A stretch of 41,552 nucleotides of DNA from Methanosarcina sp. DH2 (GCF_020804225.1 NZ_WJBI01000017.1:81260-122811); one strand, 5' to 3'; shown: positions 7,688 to 33,493, counted from the first letter of the stretch. Made by a program: numbers and translations. Notes: generated by a model not told the origin, from the letters alone.

Positions 7688-8146
<459 letters not shown>

Positions 8147-8926: not shown

Positions 8927-9021
8927 ATGGAGTACCTATCCGGCAAATAGAAGGAACCGATTATCCTTCAGGAAATGGTTATTCCGTTTGATTATTTCTT
9001 TTAATTATTCGTATTCCTTTT

Positions 9022-9138
9022 GACTACTTCGTTTGATTACTTCGTTTGATTACTTCGTTTGATTACTTCGTTTGATTACTTCGTTTGATTACTTCGTTTG
9101 ATTACTTCGTTTGATTACTTCGCTTGATTATTCCGTTA
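9022..9138. repeat. 13-bp tandem repeat, about nine copies
   Basis: The unit GATTACTTCGTTT is repeated in tandem. The central six copies are identical and both ends are degenerate. It lies about 100 bases upstream of the minus-strand tatC-like start at 8926, in the divergent tatC-tatC promoter region. Confidence 0.95.
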
Positions 9139-12258: not shown

Positions 12259-12360
12259 ATCCCAAAGATATAGCTTTCCGTCCTGTCATACTTCCCGCCG
12301 CTGTTTACAGTTTCGTATAAGTCTACAGTTTCGTATACCCATAATTCAAAAATCATCTTA

Positions 12361-12444
12361 CCTCAATATTCCTACCTCAATATTCTTACTTCAATATTCC
12401 TACCTCAATATTTCTACCTCAATATTCTTACCTCAATATCCTTA
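12361..12444. repeat. 14-bp tandem repeat, six copies
   Basis: Six tandem copies of CCTCAATATTC(C/T)TA, with further degenerate copies up to about 12490, lie between the convergent Nudix and amrS genes and run into the amrS stop codon. Confidence 0.93.
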
Positions 12445-12484
12445 ACTGATATTCTTAACTTATTCTTAACTCAATGTTCTTAAC

Positions 12485-13549
12485 TTAATATTCATCTTCG
12501 TTCAATACCTTTTTTGCACCCACATACTCTCCAACAATAGGGATATTTTCTCCGCAAACCGGGCAGGTCTTTTCAGGAGTAATTTCGTATTTTTCTATAT
12601 CGAAATAACCTCGGAGAATCAACATTTTGCCGCAGTTCGGACAGAAAGTGTTGTTGCGGTCGCTCCCTGGAACATTGCCCATATATACATATTTCATCCC
12701 TTCTTCAGTTGCGATTTTACAGGCTTCATTCATTGTTTTCACCGGAGTAGGGGAAAGATCCTGCATCTGGTACTGAGGGTGGAAGCGCGTAAAGTGCAGG
12801 GGGGTTTCGGGGCCGAGGTTTTTGTAGACCCATTTTGAAAGTTCCCTGAGTTCGTCAGGAGAATCATTTACTCCAGGAATGATCAGGGTTGTGATCTCGA
12901 CATGGATTCCGAGCTCTTTTGCAAGGGCAGAAGCCTCAAGTACGGGAGCCAGTTTTGCACTGGCAACATCATGATAAAATTTTTCATTGAAAGCCTTGAT
13001 ATCAATATTAGCGGCGTCCAGATAGGGTGCGATATGTCTCAGAGGTTCAGGAGTCATATACCCGTTTGTTACGTAAACCGTGCCAAGTCCGGCTTCTTTT
13101 GCCAGTTTTGCACTCTCATAGGTATACTCGTGCCAGATTGTGGGCTCGTTATATGTCCAGGCAACAGACTTTGAGCCTGAGAAAAGCGCCCTTTCCACGA
13201 GTTCCTCCGGAAAAATATCCTTTGTATAAGCGTCTTCCAGGCAGACCTGAGAAATCGACCAGTTCTGGCAGTGTTTGCAGTGGAAATTACATCCGATAGA
13301 CCCGACTGAGTAAACATAAGACCCCGGATGAAAATGGTAAAGCGGCTTCTTTTCTATAGGGTCAACGGCTTCGCTCGAGACAGTGCCGTAAATAAGAGAA
13401 TACAGGTCTCCTCCCCTGTTTTCCCTGACCCCGCAAAATCCTCTCTTTCCGGGGGCAATCCTGCAGCTCTGGGCGCAGAGACTGCAGTGTACTTTATTGT
13501 CTCCGATTTTCTCGTAGAACATGGCTTCTTTTATCACATCAATCCCCAT
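12485..13549 (-). CDS. amrS: AmmeMemoRadiSam-system radical SAM enzyme
   Basis: This 354-residue protein matches the AmrS family (MJ0808-like, related to pyruvate formate-lyase activases). It has the radical SAM motif CNFHCKHC near residue 90, an N-terminal cysteine cluster (CSLCAQSCRIAPGKRGFCGVR), the conserved YNEPTIWHEY and LHFTRFHPQY stretches, and a C-terminal zinc ribbon (CPNCG...CPVCG). Neither the AMMECR1 nor the Memo partner is in the window. The chemistry it performs is not established. The called ATG has poor ribosome binding support, and an in-frame GTG five codons in with GGGGATTGAT before it is a possible alternative. Expression as a single gene seems likely. Confidence 0.92.
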   Translation of the reverse strand: MGIDVIKEAMFYEKIGDNKVHCSLCAQSCRIAPGKRGFCGVRENRGGDLYSLIYGTVSSEAVDPIEKKPLYHFHPGSYVYSVGSIGCNFHCKHCQNWSISQVCLEDAYTKDIFPEELVERALFSGSKSVAWTYNEPTIWHEYTYESAKLAKEAGLGTVYVTNGYMTPEPLRHIAPYLDAANIDIKAFNEKFYHDVASAKLAPVLEASALAKELGIHVEITTLIIPGVNDSPDELRELSKWVYKNLGPETPLHFTRFHPQYQMQDLSPTPVKTMNEACKIATEEGMKYVYMGNVPGSDRNNTFCPNCGKMLILRGYFDIEKYEITPEKTCPVCGENIPIVGEYVGAKKVLNEDEY

Positions 13550-13687
13550 TCATTGATTGTTTTTCAGGATAATAACGGTTACTGTTGTAGATTTTATTTA
13601 GTTCAAGTAAAAGAAACAGAGCGATCATTTTTTTACCAAAATTTTCCATAAACGAACGTGAAATTCTTCGAATAACAGGCACAAAAA

Positions 13688-13713
13688 ATGAAAATGCTTT
13701 CAAGCATTTTCAT
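13688..13713. promoter_or_regulatory. Perfect 12-bp inverted repeat upstream of amrS
   Basis: ATGAAAATGCTT and its exact complement AAGCATTTTCAT are separated by two bases. The site is about 140 bases upstream of the amrS start. It could be an operator or a hairpin; the sequence alone does not decide. Confidence 0.6.
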
Positions 13714-14224
13714 GCTAAATTAGTAACAAGAAATCTATTAAATCCTGTAAGAAATATTCAAAAATCAATTTAATTTATCAAGATAACCGATCACCATATC
13801 ATAAAAGAACAAAATCAAAGTTGCGCTGGCGCACCCCGCAGCTTGCTACGGGTATTCGACTGAAATCAACGCCTTATGCCATTCCCCTGTACTTTTTCAG
13901 TCACTCATGAGAACACACCGATTATTAAGCTTCATCTCTGAAGAAATCAGTTCTTTTTTCTCACTTCCTGCACGTTTTCTGGGAAAAGTCTCTAAGGCGA
14001 AACACTGAAGTAACAATCTATACAAAGCCGAATCCGAAGAACACTGAAGCTCTTGCTGAAAGACGCTCCAAAACAGGTAATTATTGAGCCTATCTCAAAA
14101 CTATCCTGTCCTCTTAAGGCATATTTTCACAGGAAATAGCAGGATCCTGTAAATTTTCCAATGATGTCCGACTTTTACACTCAAAACAAGAAGAAAAGGA
14201 ACTTGAGACAAACTCTATTCAAAA
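13714..14224. mobile_element. Possible remnant of an insertion element
   Basis: This 510-base gap has no intact gene. Two stretches look like mobile-element debris: a GC-rich block at about 13823-13860 (GCGCACCCCGCAGCTTGCTA) and GAGCCTATCTCAAAACT at 14089. The latter resembles, in the opposite orientation, CTTTTGGGATAGGCTC at about 35522, and could be a transposon end. No transposase can be read, so the call is tentative. Confidence 0.3.
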
Positions 14225-15028
14225 TTATGTATTCATAAAAGATCCATATATTATTCTTCTTGTAATCAAACCAATTACTACTGCACTCAAAAAACTAATC
14301 AATGTACCAATCAATATGTACTCCACATCGTCTCTTCCTTTTGATTCAAAACGAAAAATTGACTTCGCAGTGATTAGTAAGCCAATAGCAGAATATTCTC
14401 CAAGTAACACAAATGTCAACAATAAAACTCTTTCAATTCGACCAATATTCATTCCAGCATTTAATAGTTTTTCATCTTTAGGATAATCAATTTGATTTTT
14501 TAAAATTGAAGTCCATTTTCCGATGACAATTCCAGTCGGCCAAATGGTAATAATATACGAGATACAAATTATCCATAAGTTTGTATAACTGCCCAAACAT
14601 AAAGAATCAATGTTTATTTCAAAATTTACAATTTGCTTCCATATTAAAATAATAATTATAATATGTAAAAACTGATCCACTATGAATAATAAAATATCTG
14701 CCTTACTATCATAATTGTTTTTGGAATCTGAATCAGAGTTACAAATTTTTGTTTCTACAAACAATTTAAAGTAGTCTATTACCACATGTGTAGTATAAAT
14801 AACGACCAATATGAGTAAACAGGAAATAAAGGGAAATTGATAAAAATATAATATTACAGACGCCAAAAAACCAGCAGTGAAAGAATGTATATGAAGCCAT
14901 TTTGAAAAAAAACCATTTGCTTTGCGATCTTTTATGGAGACATCTGGTTGAAAAGGAAAATCTGCAAGGAGATGGGAAAGAATAAGCAAAAGAAGTAATG
15001 AAATATTTATATTAGATATGTCTGTCAT
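14225..15028 (-). CDS. DUF3307 polytopic membrane protein
   Basis: This 267-residue protein has about six or seven membrane helices and the DUF3307 signature: HLLADFPFQPDVSIKDRK near the start, HIHSFTAGF, THVVIDYFK and VDQFLHIIII. The conserved His and Asp residues inside or next to helices suggest metal or ligand binding, but no function is established. AGGAA six bases before the ATG supports the start. It lies 141 bases downstream of the SatD-HEAT gene on the same strand; from memory, SatD and DUF3307 genes are also neighbours in various bacteria. That makes the two likely partners, with this protein as the membrane component. A TATA-like AAATATATATG in the gap could give it extra transcription. 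Confidence 0.82.
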   Translation of the reverse strand: MTDISNINISLLLLLILSHLLADFPFQPDVSIKDRKANGFFSKWLHIHSFTAGFLASVILYFYQFPFISCLLILVVIYTTHVVIDYFKLFVETKICNSDSDSKNNYDSKADILLFIVDQFLHIIIIILIWKQIVNFEINIDSLCLGSYTNLWIICISYIITIWPTGIVIGKWTSILKNQIDYPKDEKLLNAGMNIGRIERVLLLTFVLLGEYSAIGLLITAKSIFRFESKGRDDVEYILIGTLISFLSAVVIGLITRRIIYGSFMNT

Positions 15029-15169
15029 GAAAGTTCCTACGATTTTCTTCTATGCGTGGCTTCATTTTTTGGGAGAGTACTCTTTAATAACATATATATT
15101 TATCCAGCATGTATAAATCATTTAATTTAGTCTCATATCTACTCTTTTTTATAGGTTTTAACTGACAAT

Positions 15170-16879
15170 TCAATCCCTTCCATTTTTATCATGATCTAAT
15201 TTTTTTACCAAAGCCTCTATTGCTGCATTGCCTCTATCCTGTCTTAATGCATAAGCTGCAATAACACGAACTTTTTCGCTTTCGTCCCGATCTAATCTCT
15301 TTATCAAAGCCTCTACTGCCGCATTGTCTTTAGTCTGTCCTAATGCATAAGCCACAGCAACACGAACTTTTTCGCTTTCGTCCCGATCTAATCTCTTTAT
15401 CAAAGCCTCTATTGCTGCATTGTCTTTAGTCTGTCCTAATGCATAAGCCGCAGCAACACGAACTTTTTCGCTCTCATCCTCACCTAAAACCCAAATTAAC
15501 GGAAATACCGCATCTTTGGCTTTAATCTGTCCTAATGCATTAGCTGCAGCAGCACGAACTTCTTCACTTTTATCACGAGATAATATCTTAACTAAAGGTT
15601 CTATTGCCATTTTATCTTTAGCCTGTCCTAATGCATTGGCTGCAGCAGCACGAACTTTTTCGCTCTCATCCTCACCTAAAACCCAAATTAACGGAAATAC
15701 CGCATCTTTAGCTTTAATCTGTCCTAATGCATCAGCTGCAGCAGCACGAACTTCTTCACTTTTATCTTGTTCTAATTCCCATATAAGAGCACCTACTGCC
15801 TTCTTATCCTCAATTTGCCCTAATGCATTAGCTGCAGCAATACGGACCTTGCTGCTTGGATCAGATTTTAATCCAGATATTAAAGGATCTACCACTTTTA
15901 AATTTTTAACCTGCCCTAATGCATTAGCTGCAGTAACACGAACTTCTTTATTTTCATTGTGTTCAAATTCCCTTATAAGGGCCTCTGTTGCCCCCTCATT
16001 TTTTGCTTGTCCTAGTTCGTTAGCTGCATATCTCCTTATAGACTCATCTTCCGAATTTCTCAAAACATCCACAAAGATATCCACTGATTTATCTGTCTCC
16101 GATTTCAACGAGGATAGATCTTCCCTTTTAGTCATTTCATATTGGTTTTTAAGATTTACGATTCTGGAATCAAAATCACTTAAGAATATCTCACAATTAT
16201 CATGAAAATAACGATGGAAATTTAACAGAGAAGTTATACTTTTGCGATTCAACCATCTTGAAATAGTAGATTGATCTTTATTATATTTTATTGCAATTTC
16301 TTGTTGGATAGACGTAGAATCAACTGATGTAGAAACGTATTCCTTCACTAAGTTCAATTCCCTATTTGATAAATTGTCTAATATTGCATCATAAAAATAG
16401 CAACTAACATCCATAAAATCATTTATTTTTTTTGAGGGAGTTCTAATCATTAACCTCAAATCTTTATCACTCATTTGATTAAAAATTCTTCCAGCTTCAT
16501 GAAACGCCTCCCCATCCCATGCCATAAATTCATCGGACATAGTTTCTTCATAGATACTTCCAATACCGATCGAAATTCTTGCATCTGATTTCCTCTTATA
16601 TTCCCATTCAACTGCCTTTAAATGTGATCTAATAATGGTTACTATATCCAATGCATACCGAGGATCAGTCAACACACATCTAAAAGAATCTCCCCAATAA
16701 ATATTAAAAGGATATATTACAATATCCGCATTATATTTACTGTTAATCTTACTGAGCATTTCATTAGCCAGATCAAAAGCATTCTTTAATTCATCCGTAA
16801 GTTCCTTTCTCTTTTGATCCTTAAATTTAGATGAAAATATTAAATCACCAGTAATAACAGCAAAAGTATTTTTATACAT
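15170..16879 (-). CDS. SatD-like domain, HTH and HEAT-repeat fusion protein
   Basis: This 569-residue protein has three parts. Residues 1-180 resemble SatD family proteins and the nucleotidyl-cyclase fold: ITGDLIFSS at 9-17, WGDSF at 62-66, ISIGIGS, then GEAFHEAGRIF, corresponding to the D, GD and AaRL motifs of class III cyclases. Residues about 190-212 (QEIAIKYNKDQSTISRWL) form a helix-turn-helix. Residues about 278-569 are nine HEAT repeats of exactly 32 residues. The ATG at 16879 is preceded by GGTG at six bases; TTG and GTG codons just upstream are alternatives. I infer a sensor in which HEAT repeats detect a partner, the first domain makes or binds a nucleotide, and the HTH regulates its own promoter. 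The DUF3307 gene follows. Confidence 0.8.
   Translation of the reverse strand: MYKNTFAVITGDLIFSSKFKDQKRKELTDELKNAFDLANEMLSKINSKYNADIVIYPFNIYWGDSFRCVLTDPRYALDIVTIIRSHLKAVEWEYKRKSDARISIGIGSIYEETMSDEFMAWDGEAFHEAGRIFNQMSDKDLRLMIRTPSKKINDFMDVSCYFYDAILDNLSNRELNLVKEYVSTSVDSTSIQQEIAIKYNKDQSTISRWLNRKSITSLLNFHRYFHDNCEIFLSDFDSRIVNLKNQYEMTKREDLSSLKSETDKSVDIFVDVLRNSEDESIRRYAANELGQAKNEGATEALIREFEHNENKEVRVTAANALGQVKNLKVVDPLISGLKSDPSSKVRIAAANALGQIEDKKAVGALIWELEQDKSEEVRAAAADALGQIKAKDAVFPLIWVLGEDESEKVRAAAANALGQAKDKMAIEPLVKILSRDKSEEVRAAAANALGQIKAKDAVFPLIWVLGEDESEKVRVAAAYALGQTKDNAAIEALIKRLDRDESEKVRVAVAYALGQTKDNAAVEALIKRLDRDESEKVRVIAAYALRQDRGNAAIEALVKKLDHDKNGRD
15183..16050 (-). repeat. In-frame 96-bp HEAT-repeat array, nine units
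   Basis: The codons for A-L-G-Q recur with exact 96-base spacing from about 15249 to 16017, giving nine units with no length variation. Units 3' of 15500 (plus-strand lower coordinates) and the pair around 15480-15530 and 15670-15720 are nearly identical in DNA, showing recent duplication including a two-unit block. Confidence 0.93.
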
Positions 16880-16932
16880 TAGAAACACCAAGTATTAACC
16901 ATGCATGAATTCAAACTGACAAGTTCACAGAA

Positions 16933-16986
16933 TTGTTGCATAAAATAGAATTATGCACTTACTATATATAGTGAATGCATATTTTA
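16933..16986 (-). promoter_or_regulatory. Promoter and palindromic operator of the SatD-HEAT gene
   Basis: Read on the minus strand, CTATATATAGT (about 16962-16972) is a strong TATA box, about 85 bases before the ATG. Just downstream, TGCATAA and TTATGCA (16937-16956) form an inverted repeat. It covers the interval from the TATA box to the expected transcription start, where a bound repressor would block initiation. A diverged copy of the whole block lies at 17617-17670. Confidence 0.6.
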
Positions 16987-17066
16987 CCACACGTGTGTCA
17001 TAATAGGATATTTTTTATTTCGAAGTGATTACGTATATTAACTGATTGAAGTTCTATTTAAAAAGA

Positions 17067-17580
17067 GTTGCTATTTCCAATGCATGCTTTAATCAAACAA
17101 TGCAAATCTAAAAGAAGCTTCCCAACAGTTATCTAAAGAATACTCCACCCGTATGGTTGTGGATCTTCGCCGTTTTGTTTAGCAGAAAATAATTGCTCAG
17201 TTTGGATGTAGCAGTATCCCTCAGACAGTTATCGATCTTGAATGTGATTTTCCATAAAAAATTCACTTATAATCCTTTAGATGTTGATTCCACATTTAAG
17301 AAGTGGATATAAATTACCCACAAGAAATAGCAAAAATCGATCTGAATATCAATTTGTTTAGTTCTGGATTAAAATCAATACTTAAATTACCAAAGATTTT
17401 CAACATTCAAAACTTTATAAATAAGTGCTTAGCAAATATACAATTAAGTATTACATTTATATAAGGAGCACTAACAAATATTTAACAAAATTTAATTTAC
17501 TTCATACTAACTTTTCCATTCAAAACATAGAAGAGCCTTCATGTGCTTTTTTGGTATTTGAAATGCCAAGTGCTAATTGT
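17067..17580 (-). pseudogene. Decayed second copy of the SatD-like gene
   Basis: Bases 17067-17125 align with 16638-16697 of the intact gene at roughly three-quarters identity with about one gap. In translation, intact W-G-D-S-F-R corresponds to W-E-A-S-F-R, so the Gly-Asp of the putative active site is lost, and a TAA stop follows. Around 17555-17580 the sequence resembles the start region of the intact gene (CCAAGT context), without a start codon. About 270 extra bases separate the two matching blocks, so the copy is interrupted as well as mutated. No HEAT part is recognisable. Confidence 0.7.
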
Positions 17581-17616
17581 CCTCTCAAATAAATGTAAGC
17601 TTAGCTAATAGCATGT

Positions 17617-17670
17617 TTGTTGCATAAAATGCAATTATGCAACTCATATATATAGTAAATGCATATTTGA
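17617..17670 (-). promoter_or_regulatory. Second copy of the SatD promoter and palindrome
   Basis: About 54 bases match 16933-16986 with around eight differences. Here the inverted repeat is perfect (TTGCATAA and TTATGCAA, spaced by seven bases), and a TATATATA box follows on the plus strand at the same distance. It faces the decayed gene copy, so the operator may survive without a gene to control. Confidence 0.65.
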
Positions 17671-18037
17671 TCTCGTATATTCCTTTTTTGATCATGTAAA
17701 AACACTGTGATATTTATCAGTTAAAAATAGAAACATATTAGATATGAACATCGAAAAGATCCATAAAGTCCAGAGAGCGCAGAAAAAGCCTTGGAATTCC
17801 ATTCATTAAAAACGTAAGCATAAGAAAATATTCATTAAAGATTAATCTTATGGATTTGAACTCACTGCCAGAAATTTCATACGTAATTAAGACTACCAGA
17901 TTTTAGAGAATGATTTGGAATTCAGAGAGCTTCATTATGGTTTGTATAAAATTCTTAAACAATTTAAACTTATTTATAAGTAATAAAGGAAAAACTATTC
18001 AAAAATTAACTGAGAGAATGACTGCCCTCTACTACAA
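17671..18037. other. AT-rich spacer without a recognisable gene
   Basis: These 370 bases are AT-rich with scattered short open stretches and many stops. Nothing could be assigned. Confidence 0.5.
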
Positions 18038-18502
18038 TTACTTCTTTTCAGCCTCTTTCTTAATCCTAGAATGAGTGAACATAACTTTAGGATCTAGATG
18101 TATTCCACGCATCAAATATTGAGACAGATTTTCACCATCCTCGTCTTCATCATTTGGATCGGAATGTAATGGTAAATGAAGTGCCTCATACACAGCAAAA
18201 CGATGTAAATCAAAGAATCTCGCAGAAGATCTCCTAAATTTGACGCAGCACGGACCCCTTGACATGGAAAAACTGAGAACAACTCTCCAGAAAGCTCTTT
18301 TTGTATATCCTGCGGGAACGGGGACTTGATCCCGCAGGATATACAAAAGGAGGACCAGACCAAGCCCATTTGCCAGAAGCATTGAGGGAAGGTTGCTTCT
18401 AATAACGTTCAGGATATCCGCCAGAGGAGCCGGATAGACAGGTAGCGGGAAAATAACCAAGAGATGGAGTATTCGACCAGAGCCCCTAAAAAATGCCGCC
18501 AA
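18038..18502 (-). pseudogene. Degenerate region, possibly a sensor-kinase membrane fragment
   Basis: A 154-codon frame is open here but is unlikely to be one real gene. The first part (PLADILNVIRSNLPSMLLANG and the hydrophobic run after it) resembles the last helix of 5TM-5TMR LytS-type sensor domains. The frame then crosses a 58-base hairpin and continues into unrelated hydrophilic sequence. No ribosome binding site is convincing. I read it as a gene fragment joined to other sequence. Confidence 0.35.
18295..18352. repeat. Long inverted repeat (23-bp arms, 12-base loop)
   Basis: The arms at 18295-18317 and 18330-18352 pair with a single mismatch, the inner 17 bases perfectly (TTGTATATCCTGCGGGA). 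The stem is far stronger than any other hairpin I found in the window. It may be a repetitive extragenic or mobile element. Confidence 0.85.
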
Positions 18503-18541
18503 TAAGCCCGATTCCTGTCCTCTCTCAAGCTGTTCTGGAGT

Positions 18542-19750
18542 TTACCCAGAATTCACTCCTACTTTCCATGCAAACACGATCCTTGACCCATCCTTCATAT
18601 CAAGGGCGCGGAAAACCTCAAGCCCGTAATTACCCAGCATTTCCACGTATTCGTTAAAAGGGAAGCTGTTTTCGAAACTGTACCCTGATCCTCCTTTTTT
18701 CACATCTTCAAAAGTCCAGAGGTTCCAGTCAAGGCTGAGAAAAGGGCTGGATTTCGTTTTCTCATCAGGGACCTGCCTGGTTATGAAAACGCCTCCGGGA
18801 TTCAGGGCTTCGGCAATTTTCGGGATCAGGGAAGGCACTTTTCCTCCGGGATTAAACGAAGAAAATATAACATCATAGTCGCTTCCGATTTCGTCTTTAA
18901 AAAAGTCCCCTGGAATTATATCCACTCTTGAAGCTCCATATTTTTCTATGAAATATTTTGTCTTTTGCGTAACAGGCGGAAGGTCGAAAACAAAAGCCTG
19001 AAGGTTTTCATTTAATTTTGCAAAGGCGATTGCATAGAGCCCGTGTCCTCCTCCCAGGTCAAGCAATTTTTTTACATTTGTAAAATCCACATTTTCCAGG
19101 ACGACCCTGACCGTTTCTTGAAGCAGACCACAGCGTGCGTTTTCAGCTATACAATGGACTACTTCTCCGAAAAAAGGCCCTTTCTCAACAATCTCAGGCC
19201 CATTCTTCATAATCTGTGGAAGGCGGGTCCAGAGTTCAACATTCCTGAGCCTTTCGGCAAGGTAATGCTGCTGAGAAAACGGGGAACTTTCCAGAAGATA
19301 CGTTGCACTGAGTTCCGAGACAAGGTACACTGCTTCACCATCTTTTGTTCCATCATCAGGTTTTCTGTCCTTAGATTTATCTTCATCTTCGCCTTTGTCT
19401 TCGCCTTTGTCTTCGCCTTTGTCTTCGCCTTTTCTCTGAATCTGTGTATTTTCCTCTCCCTCATGTGCCCCCTCTTCAAACCTGTCAAGAAAACCGAGAC
19501 TATGGAGGGCCTCGCAAAAGTGGGGCATAAGCACAGGGTCGCATCCTAGCTTTTCAGCCAGAACTCCTGTTGATAGGGGGATTTTAAGGGCTTCAAACAC
19601 TCCAAGCTCAAAAGCCGAAGCAATGAGCCTGCACTCCCTAAGACCCCGGACAGAGGAATCAATAAGCTTGAAAAATCGGTCGGCATCTATCTCAGGCTTT
19701 TGCATTAAGTCAACAGGTGTTTCAGTTTGATTTTTAGCTTTATTTTCCAT
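18542..19750 (-). CDS. O-methyltransferase-like SAM-dependent methyltransferase
   Basis: This 402-residue protein has an N-terminal winged-helix dimerisation domain (RLIASAFELGVFEALKIPLS) and a class I SAM-binding domain with LLDLGGGHGLYAIAFA near residues 227-242. This is the plan of the acetylserotonin/hydroxyneurosporene O-methyltransferase group. Between the domains (about residues 95-140) lies a charged low-complexity insert with GEDK repeated in tandem, encoded by a 12-base repeat at about 19383-19430. It is downstream of the ABC importer on the same strand after a 220-base gap. It may modify the transported ligand or a metal chelator, but that is only inferred from position. The substrate is unknown. 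Confidence 0.82.
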   Translation of the reverse strand: MENKAKNQTETPVDLMQKPEIDADRFFKLIDSSVRGLRECRLIASAFELGVFEALKIPLSTGVLAEKLGCDPVLMPHFCEALHSLGFLDRFEEGAHEGEENTQIQRKGEDKGEDKGEDKGEDEDKSKDRKPDDGTKDGEAVYLVSELSATYLLESSPFSQQHYLAERLRNVELWTRLPQIMKNGPEIVEKGPFFGEVVHCIAENARCGLLQETVRVVLENVDFTNVKKLLDLGGGHGLYAIAFAKLNENLQAFVFDLPPVTQKTKYFIEKYGASRVDIIPGDFFKDEIGSDYDVIFSSFNPGGKVPSLIPKIAEALNPGGVFITRQVPDEKTKSSPFLSLDWNLWTFEDVKKGGSGYSFENSFPFNEYVEMLGNYGLEVFRALDMKDGSRIVFAWKVGVNSG

Positions 19751-30889: not shown

Positions 30890-33493
30890 TCAGAGATATT
30901 CGAGCGAGGAATCCCATTCAGGGCCTTCTTCATCCAGTTTTGCGTCGATCTCTTCAGCTTTTTTACGGTATTCTTTTGCAGTTTCAGAGTCCCCCAGCTC
31001 TTCAAGGAGATTTGCGTAGTTGCTGAAAAGCAAGAAATTACTTTTCAGGAGATTAAGGTCTTCCGGGTCGGATTTTTCCAGGCTTTCGTTAAAGGCAAGG
31101 GCTTTTTCAAAGCACTCTTTTCCTTTTTCCGGCTGATCCGTAACCGAATATCCGATCCCGAGATTATTCAGGGCTCCAAGCATATGATGCAGGTGCATGG
31201 GGCTTTCAGGGTCGTTTTCATACAGGATTTTTAGGCTTTTGTATGCATATTCGTATTCCGGGATTGTTTCTTCCAGTTTATCGGCATCCCTGTATATGTC
31301 CCCCATTTGTTCGGCAAAACTGGCAAGTATCTCCTGAAGCCTCAGGTTCATCGGGCGGGATTCATATAATTTTTCAATGGTTCTGAGGGCAAGTTCATAG
31401 TATTTTCTGGCAATGCTTGAGTCTTTCTTTTCGGACTCCAGTTTTTCAAGAAGGGATATTCCTAAAAAGAATGCTTTGCCTGATGTAAGGATTAAGAGCG
31501 CCGGGTCTTCAACCTGTTCAACAATTATTTGTTCAAATCTTTCAAGAGCCTGCCTGTGGTAGGCACCGGCTTTTTCCTCGTCTCCAAGTTCGGAATGCAA
31601 CATTGCAAGTTCAAAGTATGTAGTTTCCATATCCAGAGCATGATCATGATCCACATCGTGGTCATGGTCCGTATCATGGTCATGGCCCATATCGTGGTTG
31701 TGGTCCAGGCCGTGGTTGTGGTCGTGGTCCAGGCCGTGGTTGTGGTCGTGGTCCAGGCCGTGGTTGTGGTTCTGATCGTGGCTATGGTTCTGATCGTGGC
31801 TATGGTTTGTATCATGGCAACTTTCCGGAGGCATCAGCTCAAGGAGCTGTTTCTGGACTTCCAGGACCCTTTCATACGCACGGATTGCTTTTTCGAATTC
31901 TCGATTATTTTTGAACAGCAGGCCCAGACTTGTCAGGGTTTCGAGGAGCCCCTCATGGAAAAATTCGCTCTCGGGATTGGATTCGTAGGCTTCTTGAAAT
32001 ACGGGGAGAGCCCTTTTGTGGTACTGCACTGCAGTTTCAGGCTCCTCCTCCGCATATAGCCTGCCGATCTGGTTCCAGGTATCAGCCTTGTTAGCTTCTA
32101 ACATGAGTTTATCGGCTTCCGTGGGATGAAGGTTTTCGTAGATTTCGATCTCCTTCTCATAATAAGCCCTTGCCTTTTCAATTTCTTCCTCTTCAACAAA
32201 AAGGTCTCCAAGCTCCCGATAGACATCGGAAAGCTTCAGAGAGTATTCAGGGTTTTCAGGTTCTTTTTGCAGCAGGTTTTCATAGATCTGCAATGTGTCC
32301 TTATAGCAGATTTCTGCGCTTTCGAATTCTCCTATCTCCGAAAACAGCTCTGCAAGTTCGTCTAAAGACCTGGCAAGGTTTTTATCGGTTCCAAGAATCT
32401 CCGGGTATTTGTCCATCAGTTCCCGGAAAGTGTCCCTTGCCTTCGTATAGTAATCCCTGGCTTTCGCAGTCTCTTCCGTATCTGAAAATATTAAACCTGA
32501 GTCTTTGTACATATCTGCAAGGGCCATAGAAAAAGGAATGTTTTTGGAAACTGGAATGTTTTCAGAGATGTCAATATTTTCAGAAACAGGAATATTTTCA
32601 GAGATAGGAATATTTTCAGAAACAGGAATATTTTCAGGCTCTTCTTCTATCTCGCTTTCAAGCAGGCTCAATGCTTCTTTATAGCACTCCTCTGCCTTTA
32701 CAAGATTTTCTTGGTCCGAATACATATCGGCGAGGTAGCGGTATGCGTAGCTCAGGTAAACTTTGGTTTCGGAGCTTTCAGGGTCTTTATCAAGGACTTT
32801 CCCGTAAATTTCTATTGCCCGGTTATAAATGTGCTTTGCCTCTTCTAAACATCCCTTTTCTTCGCATATCCTTCCAAAATTCATAAGCGAATCATCAAGG
32901 CTGCTGAGATGCTCGGACACTTCTGTTTCACTTTTGAGCAATTTCTCAATGATATCAAATCTTTTATAAAAAAGCGGGGATGCTTCTTCGATTAATTCTC
33001 CGGCTTCAAAACAGAGCCCTATGTGTTCGATCGTTTCCAGGAACTTTTCCAGGTACTCTGGATTTTCGGGATCTGATTCCAATAATTTCTCAAAGCCCAG
33101 AACCGCTTTTTCAAAAATCTCTTCCATCGGATAGATGTATTCTTTTGCTTTATCAGGATCTTCGAGCTTCGAAAGGATGTCTCCAATGCTTCCGATCGTG
33201 TCTCCTATAAAGGACTGATACTCTTCCTTTTTCGGTTCTTTTGAAAAAAGCTCCCAGCTAATTTCCAGCGCCTTTCCGAAAAGTGTAAGCGACTCTTCGA
33301 GTTCGTCAATTCTGTATGTTGCAAAACCTTTAAAAAACAGGAGATGGTATGAAATCTCAGGATCCTTCACTTCTTTTTCAATCTTTTCAACCTTATCAAG
33401 GCTTTCAAAGGCCTTTTTATATTGCTCTTTATCTATTTCGTCGGCTGCTTTCTTCAATAGGCGAAGAGCAGAATCTCGTAGCTTTCTTGACAT
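30890..33493 (-). CDS. Large TPR-repeat protein with His/Asp-rich insert
   Basis: This 867-residue soluble protein is made mostly of tetratricopeptide-type helix pairs (for example LADMYSDQENLVKAEECYKE and ELGDLFVEEEEIEKARAYYE), with no signal peptide and no catalytic domain. Two low-complexity inserts stand out. Residues about 284-321 repeat ENIPVS. Residues about 559-617 alternate His, Asp and Asn, with NHGLDHDH repeated in tandem. The His/Asp insert looks like a metal-binding segment (Zn, Ni or Cu), an inference. TPR proteins act as scaffolds. The gene sits between rsgA and a decayed rsgA fragment, so it was probably brought in by a duplication or insertion. Confidence 0.88.
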   Translation of the reverse strand: MSRKLRDSALRLLKKAADEIDKEQYKKAFESLDKVEKIEKEVKDPEISYHLLFFKGFATYRIDELEESLTLFGKALEISWELFSKEPKKEEYQSFIGDTIGSIGDILSKLEDPDKAKEYIYPMEEIFEKAVLGFEKLLESDPENPEYLEKFLETIEHIGLCFEAGELIEEASPLFYKRFDIIEKLLKSETEVSEHLSSLDDSLMNFGRICEEKGCLEEAKHIYNRAIEIYGKVLDKDPESSETKVYLSYAYRYLADMYSDQENLVKAEECYKEALSLLESEIEEEPENIPVSENIPISENIPVSENIDISENIPVSKNIPFSMALADMYKDSGLIFSDTEETAKARDYYTKARDTFRELMDKYPEILGTDKNLARSLDELAELFSEIGEFESAEICYKDTLQIYENLLQKEPENPEYSLKLSDVYRELGDLFVEEEEIEKARAYYEKEIEIYENLHPTEADKLMLEANKADTWNQIGRLYAEEEPETAVQYHKRALPVFQEAYESNPESEFFHEGLLETLTSLGLLFKNNREFEKAIRAYERVLEVQKQLLELMPPESCHDTNHSHDQNHSHDQNHNHGLDHDHNHGLDHDHNHGLDHNHDMGHDHDTDHDHDVDHDHALDMETTYFELAMLHSELGDEEKAGAYHRQALERFEQIIVEQVEDPALLILTSGKAFFLGISLLEKLESEKKDSSIARKYYELALRTIEKLYESRPMNLRLQEILASFAEQMGDIYRDADKLEETIPEYEYAYKSLKILYENDPESPMHLHHMLGALNNLGIGYSVTDQPEKGKECFEKALAFNESLEKSDPEDLNLLKSNFLLFSNYANLLEELGDSETAKEYRKKAEEIDAKLDEEGPEWDSSLEYL

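Follow-up and report, generated by a model that had tools for sequence, protein, structure and literature searches.

A SatD cyclase-fold protein and a DUF3307 membrane protein as near-inseparable gene neighbours, probably an undescribed signalling switch

What does a protein that joins a SatD-like domain, an HTH and an array of HEAT repeats do beside a gene for a DUF3307 membrane protein, when neither SatD nor DUF3307 has an assigned function? The question is raised by a locus of Methanosarcina sp. DH2, whose relatives are the Methanosarcinaceae. The window analysed here is a stretch of 41,552 nucleotides, part of a genome of 4.6 Mb. We propose that the two genes probably constitute an undescribed signalling switch, with a possible role in protection against stress or viruses. 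The locus is organized as follows, the DUF3307 gene being located downstream of the satD-HEAT gene on the same strand.

15170..16879, minus strand: satD-HEAT gene, 569 aa from ATG, coding for a predicted cyclase-fold domain, an HTH and nine HEAT repeats (ORF; Pfam SatD and HEAT families)
15029..15169, no strand: gap of 141 bp between the satD-HEAT and DUF3307 genes (sequence)
14225..15028, minus strand: DUF3307 membrane protein gene, 267 aa (Pfam E 5.6e-22; AlphaFold2 pLDDT 90.2)
16880..17020, no strand: region upstream of the satD-HEAT gene, with two palindromes (sequence; weak)

Both ORFs lie inside the span of 14225-16986 given in an earlier note on this DNA, the upper limit of which extends some 107 bp upstream of the satD-HEAT ORF. 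The satD-HEAT gene could alternatively start at an in-frame TTG (16891), yielding 573 aa. Both family assignments are above the curated Pfam cut-offs: the SatD signature (PF16264) matches with 34.2 bits (E 2.6e-8; cut-off 29) over residues 12-219 of the TTG-started frame, which comprise the cyclase-fold and HTH parts, and the DUF3307 signature (PF11750) matches the partner with 78.6 bits (E 5.6e-22; cut-off 23). Several Pfam HEAT families match the satD-HEAT protein as well, with E values down to 3e-88. The 141-bp gap harbours a TATA-like stretch of putative function (15088-15103, minus strand). Upstream of the satD-HEAT gene, the palindromes CACACGTGTG (16988-16997) and ACTATATATAGT (16961-16972) mark a region that is a possible, weak candidate for an operator with a TATA box. 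Simple scans for bacterial promoters and terminators performed no better than on shuffled sequences, and an Rfam scan of 13500-18600 found no RNA.

The motifs that the earlier note had picked out in the SatD-like domain, namely ITGDLI (with D12), GDS at residues 63-65 and GEAFHEAGRIF, are all present. Its parts are listed below.

16430..16879, minus strand: predicted cyclase-fold (palm) domain of SatD, residues 1-150 (AlphaFold2; Foldseek; VIA; profile match to 3mr7)
16844..16846, minus strand: codon for D12, putative first metal-site Asp, at the end of strand 1 (D in 162/166 SatD-like ORFs)
16688..16690, minus strand: codon for D64, putative second metal-site Asp, in the strand 2-3 hairpin (GDS; D wherever the position is covered)
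16202..16366, minus strand: HTH part of the SatD family, residues 172-226 (model helices; HTH family matches in members)

An AlphaFold2 model built from an alignment of 79 homologues (mean pLDDT 94.0, pTM 0.92) shows the topology strand-helix-strand-strand-helix-strand-helix-strand followed by the HTH helices, and it contains the beta-alpha-beta-beta-alpha-beta palm fold of the nucleotidyl cyclase/GGDEF/Cas10 superfamily. The best 50 Foldseek matches in the PDB are all GGDEF diguanylate cyclases or class III adenylyl, guanylyl or uridylyl cyclases, with E values from 1.2e-4. VIA-align superimposed the model on a GGDEF diguanylate cyclase domain (Z 10.8, rmsd 2.5, 129 residues), a bacterial adenylyl cyclase (Z 10.6), Cmr2/Cas10 (Z 10.2) and GTP cyclohydrolase III (Z 9.9). 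Evidence independent of the structure model came from a sequence-profile search of the PDB, in which class III cyclases ranked first (3mr7, 4.1e-5; Ma1120, 9.5e-4), with both aspartates and the next strand, R-x-x-I-G-i-G, aligned. The cyclase-like fold that had been proposed, with an unrelated fold named beforehand as the outcome that would speak against it, was thus recovered by structure model and sequence profile alike.

D12 and D64 match the acidic metal-site residues that the palm superfamily carries on strand 1 and in the strand 2-3 hairpin. Among 166 SatD-like ORFs, D12 has four exceptions, one of which is a gap in a truncated ORF, and position 64 is Asp in every ORF that spans it. Taken together, models and alignments show SatD as a predicted cyclase-superfamily protein with conserved metal-site residues. 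As 64 of the 79 members match Pfam SatD, the identity of the family does not depend on our own HMM alone. Nevertheless, no class III cyclase domain family of Pfam is found among the matches of the window protein at E values up to 1, and the Asn-x3-Arg pattern of the class III transition-state residues on helix 4 is missing from the 79-member consensus, which reads GEAFxxSGxxLD there. Lacking this pattern, SatD stands as a family of its own within the superfamily, and a binding-only role is possible.

The HTH had been described as an element of its own; it is present, but it belongs to the SatD family itself. Sigma-70 region 4-like signatures match 44 of the 79 members, and other HTH families match many members too. 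SatD might therefore be a nucleotide-binding transcription factor only, the cyclase-like domain acting as a sensor and the HTH regulating its own operon, membrane protein included. The family-wide conservation of the HTH speaks for that interpretation, as do the loss of the transition-state residues and the palindromes of at least 12 bp found in 18% of the upstream regions, versus 9% in shuffles. However, plain ligand binding would not demand almost invariant metal-site aspartates, and a partner gene that is usually overlapping and co-directional would not need regulation in trans, and we consider this alternative unlikely.

The membrane protein that accompanies SatD comprises two parts.

14609..15028, minus strand: N-terminal helical domain of DUF3307, optional in the family (conserved columns, 64 homologues)
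14234..14473, minus strand: C-terminal two-helix domain of DUF3307, constant partner of SatD (conserved columns; pairing survey)

It had been read as a protein of six to seven helices on the same strand as SatD. The strand is correct and about seven hydrophobic spans are discernible, but the AlphaFold2 model (pLDDT 90.2, pTM 0.87) is all-helical with ten helices. Neither a PDB profile search nor Foldseek identified a structural relative of this model (best E 1.5; VIA Z 6.0), which does not prove a new fold. Conserved residues in 64 homologues are H19, D23, Q27, H48, H81, D85, K88, D118, Q119 and H122 in the N-terminal domain, and G192, G196, E199, R200, K222, R226, E236 and Y237 in the C-terminal domain; the window protein keeps all of them, including the His, Asp and Gln residues typical of PF11750. 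That Pfam model, however, describes the N-terminal domain only, whereas it is the C-terminal domain that accompanies SatD, and no model matched that domain. In 32 cases, the satD gene is followed by a gene for a partner consisting of the C-terminal two-helix domain alone, mostly 118-155 aa long, and the N-terminal domain is missing from these short partners (~120 aa). The true constant companion of SatD is thus the C-terminal two-helix domain of DUF3307, which is new here. We infer that this domain couples to SatD and that the N-terminal part is an exchangeable output.

Other arrangements of the two domains were encountered. On an Arthrobacter plasmid (L175:7627-8487), the C-terminal two-helix domain lies behind an unrelated N-terminal region, possibly a different output module. 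The N-terminal domain occurs on its own in phages, including Sinorhizobium phage phiM12 (L178:2995-3315), where it retains the conserved His, Asp and Gln residues, Ralstonia phage RP12 and phiKZ Orf197-like proteins (BFVD matches). These solo proteins could be stand-alone output domains or phage counter-measures.

Next, we consider how general the association is. Starting from DUF3307 in genome and viral contigs, a SatD-like ORF was found adjoining in 84 of 85 loci, upstream and on the same strand, in a sample skewed to close relatives of the query. Because of this bias, two independent samples were added. When 295 genomes of the phylum were surveyed by their Pfam matches, 18 of 20 DUF3307 genes lay beside SatD (two in reversed order), the other two being broken or at a contig end. 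All plasmids inspected that have DUF3307 or a clear SatD match carry the pair; they come from Bacteroidota, Pseudomonadota, Actinomycetota, Fusobacteriota and haloarchaea. In total, SatD is the neighbour of 157 of 161 ORFs that carry the C-terminal domain, in counts that include duplicates, some loci having been fetched twice; the four exceptions comprise contig ends, a remnant in decay and one pair that an over-long frame had concealed. The overlap between the two genes has a median of 4 bp and is exactly 4 bp in 65 cases. By chance, such an adjacency would be expected about once in thousands of genes. These surveys show that SatD and DUF3307 are near-obligate neighbours across bacteria and archaea, bearing out the conjecture of pairing beyond chance. 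With the fold and pairing results, the earlier reading of the locus as an enzyme with a membrane partner is therefore well founded.

No third conserved gene was found among the neighbours of the pair, type I restriction genes alone being recurrent. Searches of E. coli genomes with three enterobacterial pairs and of phage records with the window proteins gave no match. Our literature search found no paper that joins SatD with DUF3307, or SatD with nucleotidyl cyclases.

The dependence between the two genes appears to run in one direction. SatD lacks an intact partner, which is missing or broken, at seven loci (L003, L004, L005, L015, L129, L132 and L158), and no intact partner without SatD was seen except at contig ends. 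A single clade in which D12 is replaced by Asn is also devoid of the partner. These few independent events are no more than suggestive, and a Tn-seq meta-analysis is in keeping with them: satD is the only accessory gene of Streptococcus pyogenes (present in 178/249 genomes) found to be essential in every strain tested; the passages of that article consulted offer no mechanism (PMC11323703). In our own reading, being accessory yet essential agrees with the pattern expected of an antitoxin-like gene. A distant SatD-like ORF on an Aerococcus plasmid (L183:3097-4753) adjoins a ribonuclease/barstar pair and a DUF975 membrane gene. It was dropped as a proxy for streptococcal SatD because the ORF as annotated lacks both metal-site motifs and does not match Pfam SatD.

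SatD could also restrain the membrane protein by direct contact, in the manner of a type II antitoxin and without a diffusible nucleotide. The strict gene order, the 4-bp overlaps, the loss of the partner where SatD stays and the essentiality of the accessory satD in S. pyogenes, as reported (PMC11323703), would all fit. Direct contact leaves unexplained, however, both the conservation of the metal-site residues and the loss of D12 solely where the partner is lost, and we regard it as quite improbable.

The system closest in logic is Panoptes (OptS mCpol and OptE S-2TMbeta; PMC12657218, PMC12657230), likewise a two-gene operon, in which a minimal palm synthase precedes a small membrane protein, with a fold superfamily that includes Cas10 and a toxin-antitoxin-like logic compatible with the loss asymmetry of the SatD pair. 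In contrast with Panoptes, SatD carries an HTH, and its partner is all-helical, without the nucleotide-binding beta-barrel sensor of the S-2TMbeta effector. As regards the mCpol family, what the VIA alignments cover is the palm fold common to SatD and Cas10. Pycsar similarly combines a cyclase-superfamily enzyme with a membrane partner, but its cyclases are proper class III family members, whereas the window SatD matches no class III domain family of Pfam, and the SatD partner matches no known Pycsar effector family (NCBIfam, PADLOC). By the features tested, the pair is a member of neither Panoptes nor Pycsar.

Our best explanation of the whole, to which we give an even chance, is an obligate signalling module of two genes, SatD and DUF3307, in which a nucleotide messenger sets the membrane protein. 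The palm domain of SatD would make a nucleotide second messenger by means of the D12/D64 metal site, and this messenger would be read by the partner's C-terminal two-helix domain and would set the partner's activity. The N-terminal domain of DUF3307, where present, would be the membrane output, and the HTH of SatD probably controls the operon. The wiring would more likely be inhibitory than activating, with the signal holding the membrane protein inactive, in the way of Panoptes and of toxin-antitoxin pairs. We nevertheless propose inhibitory control of the partner tentatively, well short of an even chance, and the same holds for an antiviral output. A broader scenario is one of widespread inhibitory signalling, in which SatD would constantly supply a nucleotide by which a membrane toxin is kept inactive, stress or phage would deplete the signal and release the toxin, and the HEAT repeats would provide an extra trigger in the window copy. 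Though rather doubtful as a whole, it would, if true, explain the accessory-yet-essential streptococcal satD. If SatD is an active enzyme, the pair would add a branch to nucleotide second-messenger signalling, one whose membrane partner matched no solved structure. Two function-less families gain a testable joint role, that of a cyclase-fold protein with a near-inseparable membrane protein in archaea and several bacterial phyla.

The purpose of such a circuit might be housekeeping, for envelope or acid stress, rather than defence, which would be compatible with the same mechanism and which we judge only slightly less than an even chance. The name SatD itself goes back to acid tolerance in S. 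mutans, as cited in PMC11323703. In 12-13 loci of the Flavobacterium group, the pair shares a conserved gene order with HMG-lyase-like and dihydroorotate dehydrogenase genes; some lineages thus pass it on by vertical descent next to metabolic genes, which is equally consistent with a housekeeping role. PADLOC holds no model for either protein, its matches in the pair hitting HEAT or HTH parts only. Against a housekeeping role, the distribution is patchy: within the family, 14 of 101 genomes have Pfam SatD, as do 41 of 295 in the phylum, and this paired type occurs in 1 of 31 genomes of the genus. The pair is moreover the evident cargo of enterobacterial plasmids of 3.8 kb. It lies directly beside a Pycsar locus on a Sphingomonas plasmid, adjoins HipA, HEPN and AbiEii-type genes in Agrobacterium, and directly follows type I restriction HsdM-HsdS genes, within their operons, in six Bacteroidales-type loci (L066, L080, L085, L089, L111 and L113). 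A survey of neighbourhoods for defence genes, as the earlier note had suggested, therefore gives a divided answer, with the restriction operons and Pycsar on one side and the metabolic synteny of Flavobacterium on the other. No defence genes were recognized around the window copy.

The window copy is itself unusual, in both composition and setting.

15173..16063, minus strand: nine HEAT repeats, 32 aa / 96 bp each (Pfam; repeat analysis)
13595..18560, no strand: segment swapped for a different segment of ~5 kb in three congeners (blastn versus syntenic regions)

The nine repeats counted previously were indeed found as nine 32-aa units, which are 78-82% alike at the DNA level. They set the protein apart from its namesakes, Pfam SatD (PF16264) and streptococcal satD, and the SatD-HEAT fusion is the sole case among about 165 SatD ORFs, the gene being present in one of 31 genomes of the genus, that of Methanosarcina sp. 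DH2. HEAT arrays of a similar kind are abundant elsewhere in the genus. The G+C content is 30.1% for the SatD part, 28.2% for the DUF3307 gene and 39.7% for the HEAT part, with 41.3% for the window. The swapped segment is flanked by a radical-SAM gene (12485-13549) and a methyltransferase gene (18542-19750), and 13595-18560 has no nucleotide match to the ~5-kb alternative segment of the congeners. In the one alternative allele annotated (L184), that segment codes for a FeoB-like iron transporter and a DtxR-like regulator. The A+T-rich composition and the alternative segment suggest that the pair replaced another allele here and that a host-like HEAT array was joined to SatD, in an order of events that we infer. 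Added to the acquired pair, the HEAT array would probably provide a protein-binding control input.

In the DUF3307 tree, the window copy clusters with Methanolobus (support 92/91), and its branch is an ordinary one. Its SatD part has a branch length of 3.13, compared with 1.38 for DUF3307, and its placement was not settled by the tree. Near-invariant sites are altered in the window SatD (W62 for R, R67 for Q and A129 for S), and these departures and the long branch suggest that its function may have changed. With a fusion found in no other species and a divergent SatD, the window copy may be atypical of the family. At the extreme, it might be a drifting, non-functional relic fused by chance to a HEAT array, as the uniqueness of the fusion, the long SatD branch with its substitutions and the 141-bp gap in place of an overlap would suggest. 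Yet neither reading frame is interrupted, the DUF3307 residues listed above are retained along with D12 and D64, and the DUF3307 protein groups with Methanolobus on its ordinary branch, so that a relic seems a poor bet.

Repeat growth near the locus had also been taken as a sign of conflict genes. We discarded this argument because short tandem repeats occur throughout the window, with 33 tandem-repeat rows spread across it. They include repeats at 7829-7952, 9019-9130, 12356-12493 and 31694-31807, among them AAT repeated ~41 times and a 13-mer repeated 8.6 times. A perfect 12-bp repeat of 3.9 copies (19386-19432) is located inside the methyltransferase gene (18542-19750), where it encodes repeated GEDK.
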